Positions 11,981 to 50,977 of a stretch of DNA of 64,000 nt are shown here, in pieces (within the stretch, counting starts at the first letter, position 1; each line of letters opens with the position of its first letter). The notes beneath the pieces are model-generated. The model saw nothing but the letters and a program-made list of their open reading frames with translations. It had not been told where the DNA came from and ran no database searches. This DNA is from an uncultured Synechococcales cyanobacterium. GTDB taxonomy: Bacteria; Cyanobacteriota; Cyanobacteriia; Thermosynechococcales; Thermosynechococcaceae. The stretch lies in NCBI GenBank assembly GCA_902806435.1, contig CADCWO010000194.1, positions 1 through 64,000 on the forward strand. Reading direction: 5' to 3'. A program made the translations under genes and the position numbers.

Positions 11981-12777
11981 ATTGCTCTCAGCTCTATTTA
12001 TAGCTTTTGAATTGCCACATTTCACTTACTACTTCCTTGCTACCTGGACAAGACAGCCTACAATGACTGTAACCTGAACCGGCTGAACTTAAAATGCTTA
12101 AGCGCTAATAGTCATTTAGTGAAATAGCATGATGAAGATAAACTATAGCGAATTTTTCGAATATCAAACACGCTTGGACCAAGAGTAGAAAGGTTCTAGA
12201 GCTAAAGCCTAATTAAGAAATTTCGCGCAACCTTAGTGGCGGGGATGGCATCTATAGGCTCCGTGCCAGCAACGCTCTAGAAGCTCAACCTGATAATGAT
12301 ACTGGAAGCGGTAGGGGTGCAGAATGAGCTTTGAACTGCTACTAAAAATTGGCTGGTTTAAGTATTGCCAAAGGGGAAACCAGTTTCGCTGAAATATTGA
12401 AGTCATAAACTGATAGGGCAAGTATGACGTTACTACTGGGTAGGTAAGCTTCTTTACAGGAGCCTTTGCAGTAAGCGGGTCCAACAGTAAGCATTCCCTA
12501 GTTCACGTTTAAAACTTAAACTATAAAGAATGTTTCAACCTGTTGGAGCAATAAAAGCAAAGGTGGAAAACTTTAGGTAATGCTGAATGACACGTAAGGT
12601 CAGTAATTTCCTTAACGACGCTATTGCAGCGACATACATTTAACGACTGTAAATATAGACTCAACCAAAAGTGAGATGCTATATGAGGTTAAGAGAAATC
12701 AAGACTAGCTTAATGCCGACCTAGCTAAATCAATTTGCCAGGTTGAATTGACAACTTATTAGGAATTGACTGTGGTC
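11981..12777. other. long intergenic region without a recognisable gene
   Basis: About 800 bases separate the lipoprotein gene from accD. A minus-strand frame at 12233-12484 (83 residues) has no ribosome-binding site, signal or family motif and is judged spurious. I see no tRNA, riboswitch core or terminator. An A/T-rich stretch from about 12640 to 12760 probably contains the accD promoter. Confidence 0.4.
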
Positions 12778-13731
12778 ATGTCTCTATTTGACTGGTTTGC
12801 TAACCGCCGGAAGTCAGGTCCAATCGGAAACGAGCAGCAAGAGCGAGAAATTGCCGATGGCCTGTGGACTAAGTGTGAGGACTGCGGCGTTCTCACCTAT
12901 ACGAAGGACTTACGTGCCAATCAGATGGTTTGCCCGGAATGCAATCACCACAAGCGAGTTGGCAGTTCAGAGCGTATCCAGCAATTGATTGACCCAGGCA
13001 CTTGGATGCCAATTGATGAATCTCTCGTACCTGTTGACTCCCTCAAGTTCCGCGATCGCAAGCTTTATAGCGAGCGCCTGCGTGAGTACCAGGAAAAAAC
13101 CGGATTGACAGATGCGGTTCAAACCGGCTTAGGCCAGCTAGCAGGGTTTCCGACTGCCTTGGGAGTGATGGACTTTAGTTTCATGGGAGGTAGCATGGGC
13201 TCTGTAGTCGGTGAAAAGTTGACCCGGCTGACAGAAAGGGCAACTCGCCAACGTCTGCCCTTGGTCCTGATTTGTGCCTCTGGCGGAGCCCGGATGCAGG
13301 AAGGCATGCTAAGCCTGATGCAAATGGCTAAAACCTCTGCCGCCTTAGAGCGCCACCGGGCAGCTAGGTTACTTTATATTCCTGTACTTACCCATCCGAC
13401 AACTGGGGGCGTGACTGCCAGTTTTGCCATGCTAGGAGATGTGATATTAGCTGAACCGAAGGCAACTATTGGCTTTGCTGGTCGTCGGGTTGTGGAGCAA
13501 ACCTTAAAAGAAAAGCTACCGGATGATTTTCAGACGGCTGAATACTTACTAAATCATGGCTTTATCGATTCTATTGTCCAACGCCCAGAACTGAAGCAAA
13601 CCTTATCTTCCCTGATTCAACTGCACCAGCCTACTCCCTCTAACGCTGACATTGTGGCAGCGAAGCTGAGTAGCCATCACTTAATTACCGAGGAGCCTAA
13701 AGTTCTCCCTCGTCCTGCCAATGTTGATTAA
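12778..13731 (+). CDS. accD: acetyl-CoA carboxylase carboxyltransferase subunit beta
   Basis: AccD with AccA transfers the carboxyl group from biotin to acetyl-CoA in the first step of fatty acid synthesis. The product (317 residues) opens [14 protein letters not shown] and has an N-terminal zinc ribbon with four cysteines ([13 protein letters not shown]...MVCPECNHH, residues about 33-55). The carboxyltransferase domain follows, with the oxyanion-hole segments [19 protein letters not shown] and [19 protein letters not shown] four codons upstream is in frame, but the ATG at 12778 matches the family start. It stands alone on the plus strand. Confidence 0.96.
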
Positions 13732-13817
13732 ACCCGATTGATAGGGCAATTTTGGGAAAATGCAGCTCAGTGGCATGATATTAGGTAGACAATTTTTTAG
13801 TACAGCAAAGAAGCATC

Positions 13818-14003
13818 ATGGGCTTTGCGGATTTGTCAGTAGCAGAACTCGCAGAAGACTATAAACTCTCCGTTGAGGATGTGTTTAGTCTTTGTGATCA
13901 ACTTGGCATTGCTTACAAGGCTCCTCAGACTCGTCTGGCGTTGGAGGATGTCAAAGCAATCATTCTCAAAATTGTGGCGCAAAGAAATGATTCAGACCTC
14001 TAA
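13818..14003 (+). CDS. 61-residue IF2_N-like small protein
   Basis: The product is a compact 61-residue protein starting MGFADLSVAELAEDYKLSVED. Its core, ELAEDYKLSVEDVFSLCDQL followed by GIAYKAPQTRLALEDVKAII, has the pattern of the small helical IF2_N domain found at the start of translation initiation factor IF-2. It also aligns with the N-terminus of the polyphosphate kinase at 48.5 kb (EL..., LC/IC-x2-L-x-I-x-x-K, ...II/IL). The fold assignment is my inference from this pattern. The gene lies between accD and psbV. Its role is unknown; RNA or ribosome contact would be a guess. Confidence 0.75.
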   Translation: MGFADLSVAELAEDYKLSVEDVFSLCDQLGIAYKAPQTRLALEDVKAIILKIVAQRNDSDL

Positions 14004-14005
14004 CC

Positions 14006-14027
14006 TAAAGCCTTTGGCTTTAAAGCC
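14006..14027 (+). terminator. overlapping hairpins after the IF2_N-like gene
   Basis: TAAAGCC, TTT and GGCTTTA (14006-14022) form a perfect seven-pair hairpin directly behind the stop codon. The overlapping palindrome GGCTTTAAAGCC (14016-14027) would compete with it. There is no long T-run, so this may be a weak terminator or an mRNA 3' end stabiliser. Confidence 0.45.
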
Positions 14028-14209
14028 AGGGTTTGAAGTCATCTCTTGCCAGAGGTTCTTCTATTTCATTGCCAAATCCTCGTGCTCATGGCTTTTTCAA
14101 ACAGGGTACTTAGTAAGGCTTTCTAGCGTAAGCATTGCTAGACACGACACCCCCTTGTCTTTATTTCGGATTGAGAAGTTTAATTACTAAGCCAAATTTA
14201 AGGAGAACC

Positions 14210-14701
14210 ATGCTAAAAAGATACATTTGGCTGTTTGTAGCCACTGTATTCTTTGCCTTTCAAGTGCTTGCTAGCAGTGCCTCTGCTGCTCAAGTCGATG
14301 AGGCAACTCGGACCGTCAAGCTAAACGATCAAGGTGAAACCATTGTGCTGACGCCTCAGCAGGTTAGAAGTGGCCAGCGTCTATTCCAAAAAGCTTGTGC
14401 TCAGTGCCATGCGGGTGGGGTCACAAAGACCAATCCTAACGTTGACCTGAGACCTGAAACCCTAGCACTGGCAACTCCGTCGCGAGACAACATTGAAGGA
14501 TTAGTTGATTACATGAAGAACCCGACAACTTACGATGGTGAGGAGTCAATCGCTGAACTTCATCCCAGTGTGAAGAGTGCGGATGTCTACCCGATCATGA
14601 GAAACCTGACTGAAGATGATATGGAAGCGATCGCCGGTCATGTACTGTTCCAACCCAAAGTGGTTGGCGATCGTTGGGGTGCAGGCAAAATTGGCTACTA
14701 A
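14210..14701 (+). CDS. psbV: cytochrome c550, photosystem II extrinsic protein PsbV
   Basis: PsbV binds the lumenal face of photosystem II and stabilises the oxygen-evolving manganese cluster. The 163-residue precursor has a signal peptide (MLKRYIWLFVATVFFAFQVLASSASA) with cleavage before AQVDEATRT. The heme site is CAQCH and the distal ligand histidine lies in ELHPSVKSADVYP. The C-terminus GDRWGAGKIGY is typical. The frame extends 25 codons upstream, but ATG 14210 with AGGAGA (14201-14206) is clearly the start. It is followed by psbV2 after a hairpin. Confidence 0.97.
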   Translation: MLKRYIWLFVATVFFAFQVLASSASAAQVDEATRTVKLNDQGETIVLTPQQVRSGQRLFQKACAQCHAGGVTKTNPNVDLRPETLALATPSRDNIEGLVDYMKNPTTYDGEESIAELHPSVKSADVYPIMRNLTEDDMEAIAGHVLFQPKVVGDRWGAGKIGY

Positions 14702-14792: not shown

Positions 14793-15287
14793 ATGCAGCG
14801 ATCATTGTTAGTCCGTTGTCTGCTTGGAATTTTCGGAATAGTTGTGGGGATTGTGTTCTCTAGCTTCCCTGCCCAAGCTGATACGGTAGATTCCTACGTT
14901 TCCCGTTACTTAAAAGCAAGGGAACCTGTGCCAATCGAGATTAATCAGCAAGGACAAACGCGCTTATTCTCGCCAGTTGAACTCACAGAGGGTAAACGAT
15001 TGTTTGAAGAAAACTGCAAAAATTGCCATGTTGGCGGCGCAACCTTGCCCAATCCCTTAGTGTCACTGTCTTTGGATGATCTTAAGGCAGCAAATCCAGC
15101 CCGCGATAACATCAATGGTTTAGTTGCTTACCTGCGCAAACCCCTGACCTACGACGGCAGCGAAGAGACGTTTTGGTGCCGCCAGGTTCCAGAAAGCTGG
15201 ATGAGCCAAGCCCAAGTGGAGAACTTGTCAGCCTTCATCCTGCGAGCTGCTGAAAGAGCACCAGGTTGGGGTACAGAGACATTTTGA
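14793..15287 (+). CDS. psbV2: cytochrome c550-like protein PsbV2
   Basis: This is a second, divergent c550. It has a signal peptide ending in FPAQA before DTVDSYVSRYL, a CKNCH heme site, and blocks shared with PsbV (NPARDNINGLVAYLRKPLTYDG against SRDNIEGLVDYMKNPTTYDG). Where PsbV has ELHPS, this protein has FWCRQV, so a cysteine replaces the distal histidine. His/Cys heme ligation is known for PsbV2 of Thermosynechococcus. The 164-residue length fits. Its role in photosystem II is not established. It converges with ndhJ, only two bases apart. Confidence 0.9.
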   Translation: MQRSLLVRCLLGIFGIVVGIVFSSFPAQADTVDSYVSRYLKAREPVPIEINQQGQTRLFSPVELTEGKRLFEENCKNCHVGGATLPNPLVSLSLDDLKAANPARDNINGLVAYLRKPLTYDGSEETFWCRQVPESWMSQAQVENLSAFILRAAERAPGWGTETF

Positions 15288-48538: not shown

Positions 48539-50977
48539 ATGAGCAGCAAAATTAGAATTCATGAGCTGTCTGGAAAATTAAATGTACGCAGTCAGGAAAT
48601 TTTAGCAATCTGTGCCCGGTTAAATATTCCGGCCAAAAGTCATAGCAGTACCATTACTGCGGCTGAAGCTGACCGTATCCTAGCTGCTGCTCAAGCGTCT
48701 ACTGCCGCTGGTTCTAACAGTACTAAACCCCATAGCGAGGGTAGCCTGAACTCAGCAGCCCATCGTACCGCTCAAACGACACCGCTAGAACAGGAATCTT
48801 CTCAATCTCAGCGATCAATTGAGGCCGTCTCTGGTGACATTCATCTAGATGACCCGCAGTATTTTTTCAACCGAGAGCTGAGTTGGCTAGAGTTTAACAA
48901 GCGGGTATTACACGAAGCATTTGACCCGCGCACTCCTTTACTGGAGCGTTTAAAGTTTCTGGCCATCTTCTGCACCAATTTGGACGAATATTTCATGGTG
49001 CGGGTTGCCGTCCTTAAGCAGCAAGTTGTCGCCCAGGTAAGCCAGAAAACCCTTGATGGCTTAACACCCCAAGAGCAACTCGCTGCGATTCGAGAACAGC
49101 TTCAGCCCGTTTTTACAAGTGCTCACCGCCACTTTGAACATCAACTGCGATCGCAACTGGTTGCTGAGGGAATTTATATTCTCAATTACGACGAACTCAA
49201 CCAAAAGCAGCGTCACTTCCTGCATGAATATTTTGAAGAACAAATTTTTCCGGTACTGACTCCACTAGCCGTTGACCCCGGTCACCCCTTTCCTTACATC
49301 TCAAACTTGAGCCTCAACCTAGCGGTAATAGTCAGAGATATGGAGACCGGTGAAGATCACTTTGCTCGGCTAAAAGTACCCAAGGTGTTGCCTCGCTTTA
49401 TTACCCTGCCGGAGGAACTCCATGCCAGCAAAACAGACCAGCCGTGGCACTGGGCCGGCGTCCCATTAGAACAGGTGATTGCCCATAACTTAGAAGCTTT
49501 ATTTCCGGGGATGACCATTCAGGAATACTCTCCCTTCCGCATTACTCGCAACGCTGACTTAGAAATTGAAGAATACGAAGCCGACGATTTATTGTTAGCC
49601 ATTGAGCAAGAACTGCGCAAGCGCCGGTTTGGTTCTACAGTCCGGATGGAAATTCAGGTTGAAATGTCTGAGACCATCCGGCAGACGTTGATGCGAGAAC
49701 TAGATTTGGAGGAAAGTGATGTCTATGAAGTCGAAGGGTTACTTGGCCTTAACGACCTGATGGGAATGATGGAGTTGTCTTTGCCGGAACTGAAAGAGCC
49801 TGACTGGTCTCCTGTTATCCCACCGCGAATTCAAAGGCTGGAGCAAACCGAGATCACTGCTTCAACTCTGGATGGCCATAGCGAGGAGCGGGAGGATATT
49901 TTCTCAACGATTCGCAAAGGTGATTTACTCGTTCATCATCCTTACGAGTCTTTTACGGGAACCGTGCAGCGTTTTATTACCTACGCAGCTGAAGACCCCC
50001 ACGTTCTAACGCTTAAAATGACGCTCTACCGTACTTCTGGAGACTCACCGATTGTCAATGCCTTAATAGCCGCTGCTGAGAATGGCAAGCAAGTGGTTGC
50101 TTTAGTTGAATTAAAAGCCCGCTTTGATGAAGAAAATAACATTTTATGGGCGCGGAAGCTGGAAAAGGCTGGGGTTCATGTGGTTTACGGGATGGTTGGC
50201 CTCAAGACTCATACCAAAGTTGCTCTGGTCGTTCGGCAAGAGTCAGGCCAGATTCGACGGTATTTTCATATTGGAACAGGGAACTACAATTCAAAAACTG
50301 CCCGCATCTACACAGATCTGGGGCTGTTGAGTTGCCGGGAAGAGCTAGGGGCTGATCTGACAGATTTGTTCAATTATCTGACAGGTTACTCTCGCCAAGA
50401 GTCTTACCGGAAGCTTTTAGTAGCACCCGTCAATTGCCGCGATCGCATGATGGCATTGATTCAGCGGGAGATCGAACACCAGAAGCAAAGCGGACAAGGC
50501 CAGATCATTGCCAAGATGAATGCATTAGCTGATCCAGATATTATCATTGCCCTTTATCAAGCTTCCCAAGCAGGCGTACAGATTGATCTGGTGATTCGAG
50601 GGATGTGTTGCCTTCGCCCTGGCATCAAAGGCGTGAGTCAGAATATTCGTGTAATCAGTGTGATTGGGCGCTTTTTAGAGCATTCACGCATATTCTATTT
50701 TCATAACCAAGGCCAGGCGGAAGTATTGATTGGTAGTGCAGACTGGCGACCCCGTAACTTGGACCGGCGAGTGGAAGCAGTTGTGCCAGTGGAAGATCCG
50801 GAGATTGCGCTTCATTTAAAGAAAATCTTAGATGTCATGCTAGCTGATAACCGACAAGCTTGGGAGTTACAGCCTGATGGCACCTACGTGCAGCGCCAGC
50901 CGGTGGATAATCAGTCAGAACAAGGCAGTCAGACACATCTAATGAAACTAACCCTACAATCCGTAGGTACACTTTAG
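48539..50977 (+). CDS. ppk: polyphosphate kinase 1 with an N-terminal IF2_N-like domain
   Basis: Ppk1 makes polyphosphate from ATP. The kinase proper begins near residue 103 (DDPQYFFNRELSWLEFNKRVLHEAFD) and is complete, with FCTNLDEYFMVRVA, the region around HTKVALVVRQESGQIRRYFHIGTGNYNSKTARIYTDLG (active-site histidines) and IRGMCCLRPGIKGVS. Before it, residues 1-50 (MSSKIRIHELSGKLNVRSQE and ILAICARLNIPAKSHSSTIT) strongly resemble the IF2_N domain of initiation factor IF-2. A Ser/Thr/Gln-rich linker joins the two. The ATG at 48539 starts the extra domain; a TTG 13 codons upstream is unlikely. The total is 812 residues. Confidence 0.94.
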   Translation: MSSKIRIHELSGKLNVRSQEILAICARLNIPAKSHSSTITAAEADRILAAAQASTAAGSNSTKPHSEGSLNSAAHRTAQTTPLEQESSQSQRSIEAVSGDIHLDDPQYFFNRELSWLEFNKRVLHEAFDPRTPLLERLKFLAIFCTNLDEYFMVRVAVLKQQVVAQVSQKTLDGLTPQEQLAAIREQLQPVFTSAHRHFEHQLRSQLVAEGIYILNYDELNQKQRHFLHEYFEEQIFPVLTPLAVDPGHPFPYISNLSLNLAVIVRDMETGEDHFARLKVPKVLPRFITLPEELHASKTDQPWHWAGVPLEQVIAHNLEALFPGMTIQEYSPFRITRNADLEIEEYEADDLLLAIEQELRKRRFGSTVRMEIQVEMSETIRQTLMRELDLEESDVYEVEGLLGLNDLMGMMELSLPELKEPDWSPVIPPRIQRLEQTEITASTLDGHSEEREDIFSTIRKGDLLVHHPYESFTGTVQRFITYAAEDPHVLTLKMTLYRTSGDSPIVNALIAAAENGKQVVALVELKARFDEENNILWARKLEKAGVHVVYGMVGLKTHTKVALVVRQESGQIRRYFHIGTGNYNSKTARIYTDLGLLSCREELGADLTDLFNYLTGYSRQESYRKLLVAPVNCRDRMMALIQREIEHQKQSGQGQIIAKMNALADPDIIIALYQASQAGVQIDLVIRGMCCLRPGIKGVSQNIRVISVIGRFLEHSRIFYFHNQGQAEVLIGSADWRPRNLDRRVEAVVPVEDPEIALHLKKILDVMLADNRQAWELQPDGTYVQRQPVDNQSEQGSQTHLMKLTLQSVGTL

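Follow-up and report, generated by a model that had tools for sequence, protein, structure and literature searches.

A stand-alone IF2_N-like protein encoded next to psbV in cyanobacteria

IF2_N domains (PF04760) are usually the front end of the initiation factor IF-2, as described in PMC1780047. The window analysed here, a 64-kb stretch of DNA from an uncultured Synechococcales cyanobacterium, contains a 61-residue open reading frame (ORF) lying between accD and psbV (all three on the + strand, in that order), which an initial annotation made from the sequence alone had likened to an IF2_N module standing by itself. What is this small protein, how widely is it kept, and what might such a module do beside the gene for a photosystem II cytochrome? 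A literature search that covered few subscription journals returned no paper that we recognised as describing a psbV-linked IF2_N-like protein; PMC2823733 lists ssl0461 as an 83-residue hypothetical protein, which we do not connect with this one. The features of the locus, together with a second IF2_N module of the window, are collected in Table 1.

Table 1. Positions of the ORF, its neighbours and the Ppk1 head within the 64-kb window
Feature	Position	Strand	Remarks
accD, upstream neighbour in the window	12766..13731	+	
Conserved element TGGCATGATATT, probable core of the promoter of the psbV transcription unit	13771..13782	+	exact copy, 47 nt 5' of the ORF ATG
61-aa ORF, stand-alone IF2_N-like protein	13818..14003	+	ATG start; MGFADLS...TRLALEDVKAII
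Spacer, ORF to psbV ribosome-binding site	14004..14199	+	
psbV ribosome-binding site AAGGAGAACC	14200..14209	+	
psbV (cytochrome c550 of photosystem II), constant downstream neighbour	14210..14701	+	ATG at 14210
psbV2-like cytochrome gene, frequent but not constant third gene	14793..15287	+	
IF2_N head of Ppk1	48545-48688	+	44.9 bits to IF2_N

Domain identity and predicted fold

The 61-residue protein is almost certainly an IF2_N-like stand-alone module. Its top match in Pfam is IF2_N (E 9.8e-5, 22.5 bits), a score just below the curated cut-off of 25.3; we therefore class the protein as IF2_N-like by homology, short of formal membership of the Pfam family. IF2_N is matched by 18 of 24 family members at E <= 0.1; when ten members were re-scanned at E <= 0.01, seven matched IF2_N, one of them over the cut-off (L003, 26.5 bits), while L031 matched a YlxM-like model only, and L001 and L009 matched nothing. 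The YlxM/UPF0122 helix-turn-helix model of Pfam is matched by 10/24 members (best E 5.7e-4), and NCBIfam gave weak matches only, most commonly YlxM (9/24). A profile search of the PDB found homology over the length of the domain, to residues 2-55 of Thermus thermophilus IF2 (E 4e-4); two designed repeat proteins outrank IF2 in this search, through summed weak repeats.

The AF2 model of the protein (pLDDT 81.6, pTM 0.62) has the IF2 N-terminal fold, its best match among solved structures being the first 59 residues of IF2 (1-363), with Z 10.1-10.2 and an rmsd of 0.9-1.0 Å over 58-59 residues. The next protein, the pSK1 Par domain, stands at Z 8.4, and the lower matches include RacA (7.2) and MerR-type regulators (about 5-6), as well as the N2 subdomain seen on the Pseudomonas aeruginosa 30S subunit (7uiu, Z 6.0), in a listing from which no family is excluded by its absence. 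Foldseek also ranked IF2 first (TM 0.89), with a best E of 0.009 for so short a chain and zero matches at E <= 0.001. The GTPase and C-terminal domains of IF-2 are absent, the ORF stopping after 61 residues, and the IF-2 of the source genome is encoded elsewhere, on contig C1. Pfam, PDB profile, Foldseek and fold match thus agree with the identity first proposed from the letters, and the unrelated predicted fold that had been named beforehand as its refutation did not appear.

A second IF2_N module outside IF-2 forms the head of Ppk1, and the initial annotation had aligned the two, suggesting a small family of adaptors. Both modules are indeed found by a Pfam search of the source genome, in which four IF2_N matches at E <= 0.002 (two in IF-2, the Ppk1 head and the 61-aa ORF) are followed by four weaker ones (E 0.02 to 1.1). 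Their mutual resemblance is weaker than implied: BLASTP of the ORF against the Ppk1 head finds no similarity, and it takes the family profile to recover the head, at 57.6% probability (E 1e-4, 43 columns), compared with 85% (E 6e-6, 37 columns) for the IF-2 head of the source genome. The Ppk1 head shares 67% identity with this IF-2 head over 54 residues and therefore looks like a recent copy of it, whereas the ORF belongs to a separate, psbV-tied family with its own invariant signature; the two do not form one small family. Together with the helicase-like frame described below, this suggests that other proteins acquired copies of IF-2 heads independently of the psbV-linked family. In a 98-genome sample, most genomes show two IF2_N matches at E <= 0.01, the number that a two-module IF-2 would be expected to give. 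In the source genome, the fifth IF2_N-like match, a weak one (E 0.02), falls in a 601-aa open frame (G000:C195:31162-31251, + strand, locus L016), and a large open frame in another genome (L101:1743-4001, on G030:C82), by eye a UPF1-like helicase, begins with an IF-2-type IF2_N head.

Distribution, linkage to psbV and selection

The family was sought in 292 genomes across the phylum, many of them outside the class of the source genome. With the single protein as query, 48/292 genomes match at E <= 0.01, some solely in IF-2-sized frames; with a 24-member profile, 75/292 match at E <= 0.05. Most of the long frames matched by the profile in the genome search (923-1071 aa) have the size of IF-2, and several of them coincide with over-cut-off IF2_N matches (e.g. 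G095:C1:3214062, G097:C45:4129, G089:C1:1102483); G241 and the fragment in G085 look like IF-2 heads. Among the weak matches in other frames, L096 and L099 are IF-2 heads, and L097, L098 and L100 look like chance. We read the profile search as placing the short-frame family in 49 genomes, the source genome and 48 others, under 14 family labels. A score of about 84 bits or higher is reached in 39 of the 49, including three with altered copies (in G262 the match begins at position 7, and the copies of G101 and G278 have diverged); the remaining 10 are weak or broken. Among 98 genomes drawn, 40 are the source genome or belong to its family or class; 15 of the 40 have an intact copy and seven a decayed one. 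All four listed genomes of the same family as the source carry the ORF, so its absence from close relatives, also named beforehand as counting against the protein, did not occur.

An origin from a mobile element or phage was considered and rejected: plasmid and phage records gave no match, and a PHROGs search returned nothing under E 0.1. Two matches in viral contigs have in common just a short LCDELGIAY-like stretch, within an unrelated-looking 196-aa frame.

In all 48 genomes with short-frame relatives outside the source genome, psbV lies just downstream on the same strand, and the same holds in 11/11 named contigs, a set that may share species with the genomes; together the two sets comprise 40 non-source loci, 14 further loci and five decayed loci. 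Of the two neighbours named in the initial annotation, only psbV is constant; linkage to accD was rejected, that gene being adjacent upstream in just 18 of the 40 other loci (among the 40, the flank of L043 is too short for a decision). Translations inspected by eye in 13 loci without accD show that the upstream gene varies (uroporphyrinogen methyltransferase-, guanylate kinase-, glutathione synthetase-, peroxiredoxin- or ABC transporter part-like). A psbV2-like cytochrome gene follows psbV in many, not all, carriers, and some others have a plastocyanin-like gene (by eye). Conversely, psbV is present in 29 of 30 searched genomes lacking an intact ORF (G107 gave no psbV), so a genome can possess cytochrome c550 without the ORF.

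By its pattern of substitution, the 61-aa ORF is a real gene whose relatives are under purifying selection, with a median pN/pS of 0.37 and a maximum of 0.62 (207 pairs, restricted for the median to those with pS 0.1-0.7; L010, L011 and L015, a second copy of the source locus, excluded). Conservation is strong in the start MGFADLS and in the segment TRLALEDxKA, with 11 columns invariant in 24 sequences and 13 residues invariant after M1 when L010 is left out. The family-specific invariant residues cluster in the N-terminal strand and in the stretch before helix 3, a pattern that suggests a binding site for a specific partner. Net charge is -1 to -8 in 23/23 members (alignment columns 1-57; L010 excluded), and wide variation is seen at positions 21 and 24, which belong to the second helix and are presumably exposed.

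This constraint appears to be relaxed in part of one group, GTDB family f7, which we call Nostocaceae-like on the strength of its resemblance to the Anabaena and Trichormus loci L010 and L011, a presumptive naming. Four f7 copies are intact, with pN/pS of 0 to 0.45 over the first 41 codons, where single values are noisy, and of 0.22 to 0.67 over the whole length; other f7 copies are disrupted by frame breaks or an in-frame stop, or are heavily changed. Pairwise comparison of nine diverged or decayed copies gave a pN/pS of 0.6-1.1 in 28 of 36 pairs and lower values, down to 0.21, in the other eight. Decayed copies still lie 5' of psbV in Nostocaceae-like genomes (L051, L052, L053, L059, L061, L089-L093).

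The strict linkage to psbV, the acidic character of the protein and the family-specific residues conserved in GFAD and TRLALED would all suit a cytosolic chaperone, or a targeting or assembly factor, acting on the PsbV precursor or another photosystem II part before export. We consider this rather unlikely, since the linkage may reflect a shared promoter alone, psbV persists in nearly all searched genomes without an intact copy, and the fold points to a translation factor.

A conserved element and the psbV transcript

Within 220 nt 5' of the ORF, 24 of 42 rows contain TGGCATGATATT with no more than one mismatch, and 30 contain it when two are allowed, the rows counting the source locus twice (L015, L020) and retaining some near-identical loci; three mismatches are seen in 5/42 rows, and nothing convincing in 7/42. 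In the 30 rows with at most two mismatches, the element starts 38-60 nt before the ATG in 24, at 185-207 nt in five related loci and at 97 nt in one, and it is often followed by a second block, ACTCAATCT. A motif-free count gave the same picture, 8-mers of the element occurring in up to 12 of 25 representative loci, compared with at most five in 100 shuffles. The source genome has a single exact copy of GTGGCATGATATT. With two mismatches allowed, the window contains three matches to the element, fewer than the 5.26 expected by chance, so only the exact, conserved copy is meaningful; a consensus promoter scan of the window did not flag the element. A regulon was considered and rejected, since outside psbV the matches in the source genome are close to chance (one exact and four one-mismatch sites for a 13-mer, three for a reversed control).

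What the element serves can be judged from genomes without an intact ORF, for which 30 psbV loci of 29 genomes were compared, five with a decayed ORF and 25 with none. The element lies 5' of psbV in 10 of these 25: seven have it 83-335 nt from the gene with no more than one mismatch, and three (L054, L055, L060) have a longer f7 form; it was not confidently recognised in the other 15, which are uninformative. In L060 (from G103), the element lies 47 nt 5' of psbV and, together with ACTCAAT, leads directly into the ribosome-binding site of that gene; this junction was read from the last alignment block, the automatic alignment having misplaced the L060 start. The arrangement looks as if the ORF had been cleanly deleted. 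Decayed copies occur in four other genomes that share the genus label of G103 (G048, G064, G072, G127).

Where there is an ORF the element lies ahead of it, and in a good part of the genomes without one it lies ahead of psbV; from this we infer, with good support, that the element serves as psbV promoter and that the ORF is the first cistron within the psbV transcription unit. That ORF and psbV share a transcript is probable on this comparative evidence. The spacer between ORF and psbV measures 19-245 nt (median 145.5 over the same 42 rows, with the psbV start taken too late for L045 and L046); in six rows it is 19-49 nt, which leaves little room there for a separate promoter.

The position of the gene beside a conserved element, together with the winged-helix matches described above and the YlxM/UPF0122 model, the sole match of L031, brings up a different protein: a small winged-helix transcription regulator that would bind the psbV promoter and control its own operon. 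Such a regulator would be expected to present a positively charged, conserved DNA-reading helix, whereas this family is net negative throughout and variable at the recognition-helix positions 21 and 24, so that reading of DNA is unlikely; moreover, some genomes that lack the ORF have the element 5' of psbV, where it does without the protein, and IF2 is the better structural match. The regulator is, in our view, improbable.

It might also be the act of translating the ORF, and not its product, that tunes psbV translation or message stability. The probable first cistron has no Shine-Dalgarno sequence apparent by eye in the window, and most other loci likewise none, yet it precedes a gene with a clear one, of which AGGAGAAC is common to 15 of 25 representatives; the one genome in which the element almost abuts psbV would fit the same idea. 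Such a leader cistron is nevertheless very unlikely, given invariant columns and purifying selection on the encoded protein, a predicted folded domain, and a spacer of variable length without unusual RNA fold (z -0.41 in the window). A regulatory RNA in the spacer was rejected as well: beside the unremarkable fold, Rfam gave no match above the gathering score, its single sub-threshold match lying on the minus strand inside psbV. No terminator-like sites occur in the spacer, those detected falling inside psbV (14228-14243).

A possible role in translation and comparison with known systems

Cytochrome c550 is lumenal. The 61-aa protein shows no signal peptide by eye and should therefore be cytosolic. 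More cautiously than for the transcription unit, we suggest that it serves there in docking and may influence translation initiation. The psbV message would supply it as first cistron, and its IF2_N-type domain, with the conserved GFAD start and the TRLALEDxKA segment, would dock on a partner, either a protein or the ribosome, for which the 30S initiation machinery is the likeliest candidate, and so tune initiation when psbV is expressed. According to a preprint (PMC13345285), IF2 N-terminal domains stabilise the 30S pre-initiation complex, the 30S contact being mainly through the N2 domain and the alpha-specific N-terminal region being unresolved. As such domains stabilise IF2 on the 30S subunit, a ribosomal or initiation partner is the first candidate, with a photosystem II or precursor partner next; in the profile alignment, however, T. 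thermophilus IF2 has only five of the 13 invariants, which means that the family may have another partner.

Followed up to a translation-linked docking role, this chain has, in our judgement, somewhat under an even chance of being right. Docking on the ribosome itself, argued by analogy with IF2, is possible and yet doubtful, and we think it unlikely that the protein is a free-standing IF2 head that, as first psbV cistron, competes with or assists IF-2 and thereby couples synthesis of a photosystem II subunit to initiation. Were an IF2 head found to act in this way, it would represent a class of initiation modulator that works in trans and is translated from the very message that it accompanies.

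Whichever partner it may have, a conserved stand-alone IF2_N module in what is probably the psbV transcription unit, one that many lineages retain and that is in decay among Nostocaceae-like genomes, offers a testable handle both on what IF2_N does alone and on how psbV expression is set, and genomes with intact, decayed and missing copies provide natural comparison strains.

Among known systems, the closest is the N-terminal domain of bacterial IF2, which has the same predicted fold (Z 10.2, rmsd about 1 Å); in contrast to IF2, the 61-aa protein stands alone, without GTPase, and is placed beside psbV. In the profile alignment with T. thermophilus IF2, the family invariants F3, D5, C26, L29, T38, L42, E43 and K46 are not found in that protein, F3 lying outside the alignment. 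The Ppk1 head is the same kind of module, but is fused to an enzyme and is invisible to the ORF by BLASTP. Winged-helix domains (pSK1 Par, RacA, the MerR family, YlxM) have a similar helix arrangement (Z about 5-8.4), and members of the 61-aa family give weak matches to the YlxM model; the family is, however, acidic, with variable second-helix positions, and matches them less well in structure than it does IF2.
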